Below, piece after piece: positions 30,219-37,759 of a stretch of DNA of 44,434 nucleotides. Made by a program: the position numbers and the translations under genes. The DNA lies in contig JAJXZF010000101.1 of assembly GCA_021780225.1 (NCBI GenBank), forward strand, positions 1-44,434. The letters are read 5' to 3'. Origin of the DNA: Deltaproteobacteria bacterium (GTDB taxonomy: Bacteria > Desulfobacterota > Binatia > Binatales > Binataceae). The notes beneath the pieces are model-generated. The model was not told where the DNA came from, searched no databases, and saw only the letters and a program-made list of their open reading frames with translations. The number at the start of each line of letters is the position of its first letter. Within the stretch, counting starts at the first letter, position 1.

Positions 30219-30468
30219 CGGAGGGCGGCGGGACAGCGGGCGCGCCTTGCAAAAACGCGCGCGGTTGCGGTATGGCCAAAGTTCGGGGGCGGCGTGCGCG
30301 CGCATCCACGCGAGCGAACCCGAATCGTTGCGAACCAGCATCGGCGCGCCGCGAAGGATCGCCGTAACGGCCGATTACGTCGATTCCGAACCACTCGCGA
30401 ATTCGTCGGCGACTTACTGCCAAGCCGAACAAGATGACGGCCAACGCCGTCGGGAACGAGGACGAGAG

Positions 30469-32942: not shown

Positions 32943-34202
32943 ATGAACTCAGGAGATCGAACTGCCGGCGGCGGCGCGCCGCGCGGCTCGATCGCGCCGA
33001 GCCGGCAGTACCAACCGTATCTCGAAGCCGCGTGGGGCTTCAAAAACGCCTGGTATCCGGCGTTGTTCGGCGCCGAGCTGAGCAAAAACGTGGTAGCCGG
33101 CGTGACGATTGCGGGCCACGAAATCGCGCTCAGGCTGGTGAAGGGCCGCGTGCATGCGATTCGGGACCGCTGCGCCCATCGGGGCGTGCGGATGTCGCTG
33201 CGGCCCCGCTGCTTCGCCGACGACACGATCACTTGCTGGTATCACGGTTTCACTTACGGACTCGACGACGGCGTGCTGAAGACGATCGTCGCGTCGCCCG
33301 AAGACCCGCTGATCGGGAAGGTGCGCATCCGGACCTATCCGGTCGAGGAGCGCGCCGGAATCGTCTTCGTTTTCGTTGGCGACGAGGAATACGCGCCGGC
33401 GCCGCCGCTTGCGGCCGATTTACCGATACGGATCGCGGACGACGCGAATCCGGTCGCGCATCTCCTTGACGAAAACGTCCACGTCCGCGGCGTGCATCGG
33501 CGGGTCGAATCGAACTGGCGGCTCGGCGTCGAAAACGGCTTCGACCCCGGCCATCTGCTGATCCATTGGGACAACCAGATCGTCGCGGCGACCGATCGGC
33601 GGATGGGCCTCGGCGCGCTGCCGATTTCCGAGGACGCGATCAAAATTATCGACGAACCGAACGGCCCCAAGGGCATGATGAACATGTACAACCTGCGCGC
33701 GTACAAGTTCTACATGGAAAACGCCGTGATCGGGATGAAGGCGCGCGGCAAAAAGCCGTACTACGCGCGCACGTCCGTGTTCCTGCCGGGGCTGCTGCTG
33801 GTCGAACATTGGCCGATACCCGGATGGGCGCAGTACGAATGGTACGCGCCGATCGACGACCGGCGCCACGAATATTGGGAGGTGCTGGTGGGGCGCGCGG
33901 CGAACGACGCCGAGCGGCGCGAAGCCGAATATCTGTACGAAACCTTCTTCGAACCGCTCGCGCTCAAGGATTTCAACGACAACGACGTTTTCGCGCGGGA
34001 GGCGATGCGGGACTTTTACGAATCGCGCGGCGGCTGGGACGCGGAGACGCTTTGCGCGTTCGACGAAGCGACGATCGTATGGCGCAAGGTGGCGGCGCGC
34101 TTCAACCGCGGAATCCAGGAGCCGTCGGCGCGGCGCGCTGAACGGCCGCGGGCCTCGCGATGGCGGCGGACGGCGACAGCGCGGACGCGCGCGGCGGCGT
34201 GA
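32943..34202 (+). CDS. Rieske non-heme iron oxygenase, carbazole 1,9a-dioxygenase (CarAa)-like
   Basis: A 419-residue ring-hydroxylating-type oxygenase alpha subunit. Rieske ligands: C77-x-H79 (RCAHRG) and C98-x2-H101 (CWYHGF). Mononuclear iron ligands: H204 and H208 in ENGFDPGHLLIHWDN, with an Asp expected in ALKDFNDNDVFAREAM. NWRLGVENGFDP, the LPGLLLVEHWPIPG region and QYEWYAPIDDRRHEY line up with CarAa, whose members are homotrimers without beta subunit. Substrate unknown. TTGACA occurs at 32886. AGGAGG at 32922-32927 is 15 nt before the ATG, longer than ideal. The Arg-rich last 25 residues overlap the next gene and are unlike CarAa. Confidence 0.92.
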   Translation: MNSGDRTAGGGAPRGSIAPSRQYQPYLEAAWGFKNAWYPALFGAELSKNVVAGVTIAGHEIALRLVKGRVHAIRDRCAHRGVRMSLRPRCFADDTITCWYHGFTYGLDDGVLKTIVASPEDPLIGKVRIRTYPVEERAGIVFVFVGDEEYAPAPPLAADLPIRIADDANPVAHLLDENVHVRGVHRRVESNWRLGVENGFDPGHLLIHWDNQIVAATDRRMGLGALPISEDAIKIIDEPNGPKGMMNMYNLRAYKFYMENAVIGMKARGKKPYYARTSVFLPGLLLVEHWPIPGWAQYEWYAPIDDRRHEYWEVLVGRAANDAERREAEYLYETFFEPLALKDFNDNDVFAREAMRDFYESRGGWDAETLCAFDEATIVWRKVAARFNRGIQEPSARRAERPRASRWRRTATARTRAAA

Positions 34203-35211
34203 GCGTGACGCTGCGCTTCGAGGACGGCGCGGAACGGCGCATCGTGGTGGCGCCGGGCCAGTTCGTGCTCGACGCGGCGCTCGCGCAGGGCGTGCCGCTG
34301 ATTCATCAGTGCCGTTCCGGCAATTGTTCGACCTGCGTCGCCACGCTAATCGAGGGCGAGAGCGCAACGGCTCCCGGACGTCCAGTCGCGCTGCTGGCGA
34401 GCGAAGCCGCCGCCGGCCGCCGCCTGCTGTGCGTCTCGTACGCGCACGCGCCGAGCGTGATTCGCGAGCATTATCCGGCGACGCCGATCGACGCCGCCGC
34501 CGCGCCGCGCCGATTTTCGGCGACGCTCGGCGCGCTCGCGCGGCCGAATCCCAAGGTCGCGATCTTCACGCTCGCGGTCGCAGATGAAACCTTTGCGTTC
34601 GCAAGCGGACAGTACGTGCGAATCCGCATTCCGCATACTGATGAATGGCGGTCGTATTCGATGGCGTCGGCGGCGCACGAACTGCCCGCCATGACTTTCA
34701 TCGTGAAGCTGATCGCGGGCGGCGCGATGTCGGAATATCTGCTGCGGGCCGCGCGGCCGGGCGATCGGCTGGAGATCGAAGGGCCGCGCGGCGCATTCGT
34801 TTTGCGGCGCTCGCGCGGGCAGCACGTTTTCGTCGCCGGCGGCACGGGCCTCGCGCCGATTCTTTCGATGCTCGACGCGATTCGCCGCCGGCCCGGGATG
34901 CGCCCGCCGATGCTGCCCAGTTTCGGATGCTCGCGCGACGCGGAGTTTTTCGCGCGCGACGAGATCGAACTGCGCCGGTGGTGGATGCCGGAACTGCGGG
35001 CGATTTTGAGCGCCGGGCGAAGCGATGGCGCGGACGACGGCCTGCGGCGCGGAAATCCGGTGGACGCCCTCGATGCGGCCCGATCGACGCGGCCGGCGCC
35101 TCCGCCTATCTGTGCGGCCCGCCCGCGATGATCGAAGCGGCGCGGGTTCGTCTGACCGCGCTCGGCGTCGCGCCGGAACGGATTTACGCCGAACGCTTCG
35201 TCGCGAGTTGA
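34160..35211 (+). CDS. Ferredoxin-NAD(P)H reductase partner of the Rieske oxygenase, with apparent frameshift
   Basis: Electron-transfer partner with an N-terminal plant-type [2Fe-2S] domain (CRSGNCSTC, then C in RRLLC), an FAD domain (RSYSMAS) and an NAD domain (GGTGLAPILSML). Reading is continuous from 34160 to about 35082 (...GNPVDALDAAR). The expected C-terminus AYLCGPPAMIEAARVRLTAL and YAERFVAS-stop is in another frame, consistent with one missing base near 35082. Unrepaired, the protein ends at 35131 without the CGPP motif. ATG 34160 overlaps the Rieske gene by 43 nt; GTG 34199 would overlap its stop as GTGA and give a typical MSVTLRFEDG ferredoxin start. Confidence 0.85.
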
Positions 35212-35230: not shown

Positions 35231-36469
35231 ATGGACCTTACCGACGAACAACGCCGCCTTTACGAAACGGCTTGCGCGAAACTCGACTCCGCCCGTCTGG
35301 GGCGCACGCTGATGGAGTTGGTGGACATCCCAAGCCCGACCGGCGCCGAACGCGCCGCGATCGAATTCGCGGCGGAGCGGATGCGCCAGCGGATTGGCGG
35401 GCGAGTTGAAATTCAGCCGATCGACGGCGCGACCGCGAACACCTTCTGCGAGATGCGCGGCGCGGGCGGCGGCGCCGCACTGTTGCTCTATGCGCCGATC
35501 GATACGCATCTGGAGGGCGACCCGGCGCGCGATTTTCCGTGGGCCGCATCGGCGCCGCGCGCCGACCTCGCGGCCCGCGCGCACGCCGAAGGCGATCTCA
35601 TCTACGGATTGGGCGCGGCCAATCCCAAAGGAATGGTCGCGGCGTTGATCGAAATCGCGACCGCGCTGCACGAGATCGGAACGCCCCTGATGGGCGATCT
35701 GATCGTCGCGTTCGCCGGCGGCGGGATGCCCGTCAACGTCGCGGAGCGCGGCAACTACGGCATGAGCGACGGCGTCTATCATCTGCTCACCCGCGGGGTC
35801 GCGCCGGATTTCGCGATTATCATGAAGCCGTTCGCGCGCGTTTACGCCGAGGAGCCGGGGATGTGCTGGTTCAAGATTACCGTGCGCGGCACGCTCGGCT
35901 ACGCGGGAATTCCGCGCGGCGCGCCCGGCTATCGTCCTTCGATCGCTCCGGCGGCGTGGCTGATCGAGCAGCTTGAGCGCTGGCTGCCCGACTACACCGC
36001 GCGCAACACCGCCGGCGAAATCGCGCCCGAGGGCCATATCGCGGCGGTCCGCGCGGGATGGCCGGAAAAGCCGGCCTTCCCTTCGGCCGCGACGGAAATT
36101 TATCTCGACCTGCGATGCAATCCGCGCACTTCGCCGGCCGCGGTCAAGGCGCAGTTCGCGGCGGCGCTCGGAGAAATCCGGTCGCGCCGAACTGATCTAG
36201 ATTGCGACTGGGAGATGATCGGCGCGTGTCCGGGCGGCATGACCGATCCGAACAACTGGATCGTTCAATCCGCGCGCCGCGGATGGGAACTCGTGCGCGG
36301 CCGGCCGCACGGCGATCCGCCCAAGCTGAGCGGCCAGACCGACGGCGCGCTCATCCGCCGCCTCGGCGTCCCGTGCGCGCGCGTGGGCTTTACCGCGCCG
36401 CCGCGCAAATGTCCGCCGGAATATCGCGAGGGATTGGGCGGGATGGGCGTCGTCGATGTGAACGATTAG
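35231..36469 (+). CDS. M20 peptidase-like protein lacking the canonical metal ligands; amber stop before an in-frame tail
   Basis: A 412-residue protein with M20-type overall layout (catalytic domain, dimerisation insert about 205-320, C-terminal SGQTDGALIRRLGVP). The motifs are altered: the usual GHxD reads APID (88-91), the bridging Asp of GxGxxDxKG is N131 (GLGAANPKG), and the catalytic DEE is replaced by FAGGGM (161-166). A TAG at 36467-36469 ends it, but the same frame continues LECARIILYAAIDTLTRPRA then ALGL to TGA 36542-36544, which looks like the natural C-terminal helix. It follows the reductase by 19 nt. Peptidase activity as usual is doubtful. Confidence 0.8.
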   Translation: MDLTDEQRRLYETACAKLDSARLGRTLMELVDIPSPTGAERAAIEFAAERMRQRIGGRVEIQPIDGATANTFCEMRGAGGGAALLLYAPIDTHLEGDPARDFPWAASAPRADLAARAHAEGDLIYGLGAANPKGMVAALIEIATALHEIGTPLMGDLIVAFAGGGMPVNVAERGNYGMSDGVYHLLTRGVAPDFAIIMKPFARVYAEEPGMCWFKITVRGTLGYAGIPRGAPGYRPSIAPAAWLIEQLERWLPDYTARNTAGEIAPEGHIAAVRAGWPEKPAFPSAATEIYLDLRCNPRTSPAAVKAQFAAALGEIRSRRTDLDCDWEMIGACPGGMTDPNNWIVQSARRGWELVRGRPHGDPPKLSGQTDGALIRRLGVPCARVGFTAPPRKCPPEYREGLGGMGVVDVND

Positions 36470-36559
36470 CTCGAATGCGCGCGGATCATCCTGTACGCCG
36501 CGATCGATACGCTCACGCGGCCGCGCGCCGCGCTGGGCTTGTGAATCTCGGCCGCGCGA

Positions 36560-37759
36560 TCAGATAACGCCGTCCGCGCGCAGCCGGGCGATCCGATCGG
36601 CGTCGTAACCGAGCACTTCGCCAAGCACGGCGTCGGTGTTTTCGCCGAGGGCGGGCGATCGGGTCGGCGGCGCGCTGGTCACGCCCGCGGTCTTGAGCGG
36701 AGAGCCGGGCACGATCAGATCGGCGAACGCCGGATGATCGGCGCGCAGGATCATGCGGCGCTCGTGCAGATGCGGATTCACGGCGACTTCGTCAACCGTC
36801 GCGATCGGCGCGGCCGGCACGTTGGCCGCCCCGAGCAGTCCGAGCCAATGCGCGCGCGGCAGCGCCGCGAAGTGGGCCTGAAGGATTGGTTCGAGGGCGG
36901 CGTGGTTCGCGGTGCGGCCGGCGTTGGCGAGGAAACGCGGATCGTCCTTCAACGCGGGCAGTCCAATCGCGTCGCAGAAGCGCCGCCAAATCGGCTCGTT
37001 GCCGCATCCGGCGACGAAATATCCGTCAGCGGCCTTGAACTGCTGGAACGGCGTAATCGACGGATGGCGCGAACCGATCGGTTTCGGCGCGACTCCGGTG
37101 GCCGAGAAGCGCGCGAGCGCGTCTTCGAGCCACGCCACCTGGCAATCGAGCATGGCGATATCCAGATGGCGTCCGGCGCCGCTCAGATCGCGCTCGCGCA
37201 GGGCGGCGAGAATCGCGATCACGCCGTAAAGCGCGGCGGCCAGATCGCCGACCGAGACGCCGCATCGCGTCGGTTCTCCGCCCGCCGGGCCGGTGATGCT
37301 CATCGTGCCGCCGAGCGCCTGCGCGACGATATCGTAGGCCGGCGCCGCCGCCATCGGACCGCTCTGGCCGAAGCCCGAAATCGAGCACAGGATGATGCGC
37401 GGATTGGCCGCGGCGAGCCGGCTGTAGCCGAGATTGAAGCGTTCCATCGTGCCGGGCGAAAAATTTTCGAGCACAACGTCGCTGCGGCCCGCGAGTTCCA
37501 GCAGCAGGCCGGCGCCCGCCGGCCGGCGCAAATCGATGGTCACGCTGCGCTTGCCGCGATTGACGCTGTAGTAGTAGCCCGAATCGTTGGAATTCGGGAT
37601 GCGCGGCGCGTAGCCGCGCGAGTCGTCGCCGCGGCCAGGCAGTTCGACCTTGATCACGTCGGCGCCAAGGTCGGCGAGGTTCATCGCGCAGAACGGTCCC
37701 GCCAGCACCCGGCTGAGATCGAGAACGCGGATTCCGCGCAGCGGTTTTTGTTCAATCAT
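36560..37759 (-). CDS. CaiB/BaiF family (family III) CoA-transferase
   Basis: A 399-residue paralogue-level relative of the 14707-15879 gene. Motifs: IRVLDLSRVLAGPFCAMNLA, LGADVIKVELPGRGDDSRGY, NRGKRSVTIDLRRP, catalytic D143 in APAYDIVAQALGG, and GDLAAALYGVIAILAALRER. The GGG(D)DSRG stretch and GYYYSVNRGK pattern are of the formyl-CoA/succinyl-CoA transferase branch. It is convergent to the M20-like gene, about 15 nt from that gene's extended end, and 31 nt downstream of an unknown gene on its own strand. Confidence 0.93.
   Translation of the reverse strand: MIEQKPLRGIRVLDLSRVLAGPFCAMNLADLGADVIKVELPGRGDDSRGYAPRIPNSNDSGYYYSVNRGKRSVTIDLRRPAGAGLLLELAGRSDVVLENFSPGTMERFNLGYSRLAAANPRIILCSISGFGQSGPMAAAPAYDIVAQALGGTMSITGPAGGEPTRCGVSVGDLAAALYGVIAILAALRERDLSGAGRHLDIAMLDCQVAWLEDALARFSATGVAPKPIGSRHPSITPFQQFKAADGYFVAGCGNEPIWRRFCDAIGLPALKDDPRFLANAGRTANHAALEPILQAHFAALPRAHWLGLLGAANVPAAPIATVDEVAVNPHLHERRMILRADHPAFADLIVPGSPLKTAGVTSAPPTRSPALGENTDAVLGEVLGYDADRIARLRADGVI

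Follow-up and report, generated by a model that had tools for sequence, protein, structure and literature searches.

What does a protein do that has the fold of an M20 peptidase and none of its metal ligands, and whose gene stands in an operon with a Rieske oxygenase? The question is raised by the window, by which we mean the whole 44,434-nucleotide stretch of a Binataceae genome analysed here, where such a gene is also closed by an amber codon ahead of a helix that looks conserved. The sequence-only reading of this DNA had proposed two answers: a non-peptidase M20 branch tied to Rieske oxygenase clusters, with stop readthrough or a point mutation, or a decaying gene. We call the gene M20L, for M20-fold protein without metal ligands. 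It and its neighbours are the following (L numbers designate homologous loci).

32943-34202, forward strand: Rieske oxygenase of the 2-oxo-1,2-dihydroquinoline 8-monooxygenase (OxoO) / carbazole dioxygenase kind; best PDB match 1z01 (418 bits), carbazole dioxygenase at most 299 bits.
34160-35211, forward strand: OxoR-type reductase (2Fe-2S, FAD and NAD domains in the L055 homologue), with a frameshift near 35080 by comparison with the intact L002 and L003 copies.
35231-36469, forward strand: M20L, an open reading frame with homologues at 73 loci; the model of the L002 protein (93% identical) best matches NaaA.
36560-37759, reverse strand: putative CaiB-like CoA-transferase; the gene is also kept next to M20L in the closest relatives (73-93% identical in L002-L006).

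The Rieske and reductase genes thus lie upstream of M20L, and the CaiB-like gene downstream on the opposite strand. Gene calls in the window rest on a simple heuristic of GC content by codon position, with no trained gene finder. M20L begins with an ATG at 35231 and has 412 codons up to the TAG at 36467-36469. Its product scores 23.3 bits against Pfam PF01546 (Peptidase_M20), below the cut-off of 24.6, and NCBIfam returns only sub-threshold names, with ArgE/DapE deacylase at the top. An AlphaFold2 prediction for the L002 protein (pLDDT 91, pTM 0.91) matches the M20 proteins 7lgp (DapE), 7rsf (ArgE) and 1cg2 (CPG2) at E <=3.5e-22 and Z 29.5-32.8, and further DapE entries at Z up to 34.6. The window protein is accordingly predicted to adopt the M20 fold. 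With ArgE, DapE and the other metallo-hydrolases of PF01546 it would share the two-domain fold over nearly the whole chain, but it falls under the Pfam cut-off, lacks their metal ligands and general base, and is only 11-22% identical to them in the fold alignments listed.

In both fold and sequence, the closest relative of M20L is NaaA, the 5-nitroanthranilate aminohydrolase of Bradyrhizobium sp. JS329 (PDB 5k8m-5k8p). NaaA is the nearest solved protein by sequence (27% identity; E 6e-26, or 1.9e-31 with a profile), and the L002 model aligns to it with E 1.6e-34, TM 0.83/0.86 and Z 41 (about 405 residues aligned), against Z 35.3 for the next protein. This enzyme is reported to swap an aryl amine for a hydroxyl, a step before a ring-cleaving dioxygenase (PMC10306065). 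NaaA and M20L both have Asn in place of the bridging Asp. They differ in that NaaA, solved with Mn or Zn, has H86, E158 and E196 (alongside N124; numbering anchored on R289 of entry 5k8p) where M20L has Pro, Gly and Lys, and in that R289, the residue changed in the intermediate-bound entry 5k8p, corresponds to A282 in M20L. The positions concerned are listed below, with their states in the two metal-less branches described further on and in 13 aligned metal-type relatives.

35495-35497, forward strand: P89, in place of the metal-ligand His of GHxD, whose D91 is retained; Pro in 76/76 proteins of both branches, His in 13/13 metal-type relatives.
35621-35623, forward strand: N131, in place of the bridging Asp and common to NaaA (N124); Asn in 76/76 and in 13/13 metal-type relatives.
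35720-35728, forward strand: G164-G165-M166, in place of Asp, Glu (general base) and Glu (metal); G165 in 75/76, Glu in 13/13 metal-type relatives.
35825-35827, forward strand: K199, in place of a metal-ligand Asp or Glu; Lys in 76/76, Asp (10) or Glu (3) in the 13 metal-type relatives.

The ligands of PF01546 (His, Asp, Glu and Asp/Glu) and its general-base Glu are thus absent in 75 or 76 of the 76 proteins. The motifs first read from the letters were borne out (YAPID, YGLGAANPKG and FAGGGMP); the canonical D-E-E aligns to G164-G165-M166, which puts G165 at the place of the general-base Glu and M166 at that of the second metal Glu. K199 adds a replacement that was missing from the earlier list. 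In the alignment of the window protein with 69 intact homologues, P89, D91, H93, N131, K133, G164 and K199 are identical in 70/70 rows and G165 in 69/70, and the 90 columns without variation among the 69 are all preserved in the window. Judged from this alignment, the fixation of the substitutions is far beyond chance. Five charged residues, K199, E207, E208, R376 and R384, are invariant in 76/76 proteins and mostly different in the metal-type relatives, whereas H93 is fixed in the first branch only and is Val or Leu in the second. An alternative alignment that would give back HxD or DEE can be rejected, as 13/13 metal-type relatives place their own His, Glu and Asp/Glu on P89, G165 and K199; homologues with intact motifs, which would have spoken against the sequence-only reading, were not seen. 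Decay of the whole family is likewise rejected by the fixed substitutions and the 90 columns present in the window.

The family is broad. Relatives of M20L are encoded at 73 loci of the genome collection scanned, with 51-96% identity over the best segment. By record titles their hosts are Binataceae-type metagenome-assembled genomes (MAGs), Actinomycetota (Nocardia, Rhodococcus, Mycolicibacterium, Pseudonocardia) and Pseudomonadota (sphingomonads, Burkholderiales, Pseudomonas, Stutzerimonas, Colwellia). The gene is intact, that is, at least 400 residues in frame counted from the match start, at 69 of the 73 loci, and broken in frame at L003, L063, L071 and L074. Twelve plasmid records match; in just one does the match span most of the query, and no features are annotated in the matching stretch. 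Two MAG contigs titled Klebsiella pneumoniae (L013, L035) carry an M20L cluster with 58-59% identity to the query and a sphingomonad-like arrangement; these titles look doubtful.

A second branch without metal ligands is found in the Rhodococcus family, with twelve matches at 36-43% identity to M20L. All six that we read (L141-L146) have APIDT, SNPK, GGM and AKP at the equivalent places, and one of these proteins, when searched, matched no Pfam family at 1e-4. At 6/6 loci read, the gene lies between a CarAa-like Rieske gene and an MhpB-like LigB dioxygenase gene, followed by an alpha/beta hydrolase. The Rieske protein of L144 is closest to carbazole dioxygenase (149 bits, against 123 bits for 1z01), and its LigB protein to 3-carboxyethylcatechol 2,3-dioxygenase, at 159 bits and thus below the cut-off of 286. 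Comparing the loci of both branches, the order Rieske oxygenase, metal-less M20 protein, extradiol dioxygenase, hydrolase recurs with dioxygenases of different families.

The window's class, Binatia, also holds many more NaaA-like proteins, from which the 13 metal-type relatives were taken; all 13 have His, Asn, Glu and Asp/Glu at the places of Pro, Asn, Gly and Lys in M20L. Two families of this class have many such M20 proteins, with up to eight matches per genome and the residues of one metal site kept (L129-L140 and other matches). A tree was built from 33 rows, namely 14 of the 69 intact M20L, the six second-branch proteins read, nine of the 13 metal-type relatives, three other M20 proteins of the window genome, and NaaA. 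It unites both metal-less branches in one clade (100/99), beside a clade of NaaA and the metal-type relatives (98/95). Long branches are flagged in this tree, NaaA enters it as a 309-residue fragment, and the joins within the NaaA side are weak. NaaA and its kin retain the residues of one metal site and the M20L branch does not; the Asn is common to both, and the other three residues were therefore lost on the way to M20L.

A Rieske protein closest to 1z01 beside a reductase with 2Fe-2S, FAD and NAD domains, the arrangement of OxoO and OxoR, is found both in the window, where the reductase is frameshifted, and at L055 of Pseudomonas alkylphenolica, where the partner oxygenase is OxoO itself (953 bits to 1z01). 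The L055 cluster further encodes two amidases, an Asp/Glu-racemase-like protein, a BphC-like VOC dioxygenase, two alpha/beta hydrolases and an AraC-type regulator. Among the 73 loci, tblastn (E 1e-10, >30% of the query, within the stretch read) finds OxoO at 64, OxoR at 67, an amidase at 66, a VOC dioxygenase at 54, the racemase-like gene at 43 and an alpha/beta hydrolase at 55. OxoO was not found at nine loci, five of them on short contigs and four not (L041, L044, L057, L067). In the stretch read, a VOC-type dioxygenase was not found at 19 loci, nor an amidase at L002-L007, which include the window's nearest relatives, and L014.

Co-occurrence was examined in three samples of whole genomes. 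M20L is present in 6 of 298 Pseudomonas genomes, and OxoO in the same six. Of the 118 genomes of the window's class, 28 are hit by the profile and eight carry true copies (E <=4.6e-197), the other 20 having distant relatives only (E >=5.8e-44); the Rieske gene is in the same eight. In the Rhodococcus family 17 of 201 genomes match, ten with M20L copies of at least 82% identity and seven with the second branch only, and OxoO is in the same ten. The boundary for true copies was set after the gap had become visible. In G352 and G360 the M20L and Rieske genes are on separate contigs, a separation that in a draft assembly is compatible with close neighbourhood. Another genome, G007, has eight places matching the OxoO-type Rieske query at 42-65% identity, the most of any genome in that search. 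The distance matrix of M20L correlates with those of OxoO (r=0.920, n=60) and OxoR (r=0.926, n=63), and less with those of the VOC dioxygenase (0.792, n=49) and the amidase (0.716, n=56); host relatedness inflates all four values, and mixed gene kinds lower the last two. None of 1000 permutations reached any of them. M20L thus represents a true family, found in many lineages, of NaaA/M20-fold proteins that lack the metal ligands and go closely together with a Rieske oxygenase; this upholds the first of the two earlier answers, a real non-peptidase branch tied to Rieske operons.

What might such a protein catalyse? We know of no activity for any M20L member. From the observed conservation and linkage and the predicted fold, we tentatively infer, at a likelihood just under even, that M20L may be a metal-free aromatic C-N hydrolase, which would turn a hydroxylated N-heterocycle into a catechol in the 8-hydroxycoumarin route; its catalysis, substrate and place in the order of steps are all conjectural. 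The M20L branch would have arisen from NaaA-like aminohydrolases of the M20 fold that lost their metal ligands and were re-used as a dedicated partner of quinolone 8-monooxygenase. The Rieske enzyme would hydroxylate ortho to the ring nitrogen, giving the o-aminophenol-type 8-hydroxy-2-oxo-1,2-dihydroquinoline. Its ortho hydroxyl would permit a keto-imine tautomer, and water could then add at the nitrogen-bearing aromatic carbon with general acid-base help, for which D91, N131, K133, K199, E207/E208, R376 and R384 are the candidate residues and no metal hydroxide would be needed. Because this tautomer would be open to the substrate, acid-base catalysis could suffice, which would explain how the metal could be lost. 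For NaaA, by comparison, an SNAr-type route that employs a metal hydroxide is proposed, the pairing of enzyme with intermediate being our own reading (PMC11903332).

Cleavage of the aryl C-N bond would yield 2,3-dihydroxycinnamamide, from which the amidase near most clusters could free ammonia. The product would be 2,3-dihydroxycinnamate or 8-hydroxycoumarin, which is its lactone. Extradiol enzymes require a catechol, and the extradiol dioxygenase and hydrolases of the cluster would then open either compound. The primary amide left by aryl cleavage fits the putative linear-amide amidase of the L055 cluster. One L055 amidase scores 602 bits, above the cut-off of 532, for indoleacetamide hydrolase, a linear-amide enzyme; the second stays below every NCBIfam cut-off among the rows listed. 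This model was applied to the L055 amidases only, and the cluster amidases are of several kinds. The proposed route resembles one put forward for a Rhodococcus gordoniae-like strain, JH145, in which a catechol derivative would arise from a hydroxylated quinolone with loss of the nitrogen, with an 8-hydroxycoumarin step and release of ammonium proposed from mass spectra; it differs in that the accessible part of that report does not name the enzyme of the nitrogen-loss step (PMC9029321). Another R. gordoniae strain carries the M20L cluster (L022). Several observations weigh against aryl C-N cleavage: NaaA's R289 is replaced by A282, H93 differs between the two branches, and some loci show no amidase, VOC-type dioxygenase or OxoO in the stretch read.

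More tentative still is the wider proposal that the metal-free M20 clade as a whole, each of its two branches with its own Rieske enzyme, hydrolyses the aromatic C-N bond of ortho-hydroxylated N-heterocycles through imine tautomerisation, with a lysine at the place of a metal ligand, and would supply the missing enzyme for nitrogen removal in the 8-hydroxycoumarin route. The substrates may vary among hosts. The single MoCoBD_2 protein of P. alkylphenolica is a xanthine dehydrogenase and not a quinoline 2-oxidoreductase; this host thus has no candidate for the latter, so that quinoline is not the substrate in every host, and in P. alkylphenolica it may be 2-quinolone or something else. Quinoline 2-oxidoreductase was discarded as a marker of growth on quinoline, since PF20256 was present in 8/8 genomes tried and the two proteins identified were a xanthine dehydrogenase and a CO dehydrogenase. 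The Asp/Glu-racemase-like gene was considered as a maleate isomerase and dropped, as its nearest PDB matches are hydantoin and allantoin racemases; it has no clear place in the proposed scheme.

M20L could instead be a metal-free hydrolase of the same pathway acting on another bond, either the C2-N lactam bond in the hydroxylated quinolone or the 8-hydroxycoumarin lactone. Linkage and fold would fit this equally, classical M20 enzymes cleave amide bonds, and the want of an amidase near the operon in the window's nearest relatives means that M20L might itself cut the amide. Yet NaaA, which stands nearest to M20L, cleaves aryl C-N bonds and is no amidase, and most loci have a separate amidase (66/73) or alpha/beta hydrolase (55/73); we regard this alternative as unlikely. 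Slightly less probable is that M20L is a dead M20 fold serving as partner or scaffold of the Rieske oxygenase and its reductase, or as a product binder. The loss of every metal ligand and of the general base fits a non-catalytic protein as well, as would the very tight co-occurrence and co-evolution with OxoO and OxoR; against it stand the five charged residues that are invariant in both branches and mostly different in the metal-type relatives, and OxoO and OxoR have reportedly been purified and found active without an M20L-like partner. Aromatic C-N hydrolysis remains the reading that we prefer for the family.

The amber codon is a separate matter, and concerns two features at the end of the gene.

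36467-36469, forward strand: premature TAG within the last helix of the fold (model residues 410-428); Leu (54) or Val (15) at this column in the 69 intact homologues.
36470-36544, forward strand: the 24 remaining codons of the conserved C-terminal helix, then TGA; DTL[TMS]R near the end in 69/69 intact homologues.

As had been read from the letters, the frame goes on past the TAG for 24 codons (LECARIILYAAIDTLTRPRAALGL) up to the TGA at 36542-36544. The homologues, besides sharing the substitutions, pass this column in 69/69 intact cases and extend 24-30 residues beyond it, none of them ending at VDVND as a genuine terminus there would have entailed; because all continue with Leu or Val, the stop is local to the window. 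TAG is also an ordinary stop in the window, as it terminates 8 of the 43 other gene calls, two of which have it at the same place in L002. Programmed readthrough yielding a full protein, part of the original proposal, is hence highly improbable: the 24 codons after the TAG are indeed protein-like, with 5 of 7 codon differences from L002 synonymous, but a young lesion accounts equally well for the conserved tail, no intact homologue (0/69) has a stop at that column, TAG is not avoided in the window, and the reductase next door is frameshifted too.

The second lesion is clear from the L002 and L003 reductases, which match the window in two frames, up to residue 306 and then from 307-308. The other matched genes of the window show no frame change or internal stop relative to these loci, except for a stop two codons before the end of one, and some align only partially at an end. 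A 374-residue gene of L002 (L002 1744-2868) has no match in the window (30236-30421). Against L002, dN/dS is 0.118 for the M20L gene and 0.101 for its CaiB-like neighbour, within a range of 0.075-0.24 over the nine genes or gene parts compared, the reductase being highest. Other carriers have lesions as well: the M20L of L003 is frameshifted, and the Rieske gene of G018 has one in-frame TAA. Two lesions in one operon suggest that the window operon is freshly broken or mis-assembled, and as the TAG cuts the last helix and the reductase is frameshifted, this M20L copy is probably inactive or mis-assembled. The notion of a decaying gene thus fails for the family and may hold for the window genome, given the frameshifted reductase, although dN/dS remains low. 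The amber codon looks like a local defect of that genome and is no part of the biology of the family.

Our literature search, which covered few subscription journals, returned no paper on the M20-like gene of quinoline or OxoO clusters, and an earlier description is possible, for instance in the article on the gene cluster of Pseudomonas putida 86.

Overall, automatic names such as 'ArgE/DapE deacylase' mislead for this metal-less clade. M20L is a concrete and widespread candidate gene for the removal of nitrogen from quinolones, a step that the literature searched, in the parts accessible, was not found to assign to a gene. If it is catalytic, a metallo-hydrolase fold would have turned into a metal-free enzyme for the rare hydrolysis of an aromatic C-N bond.
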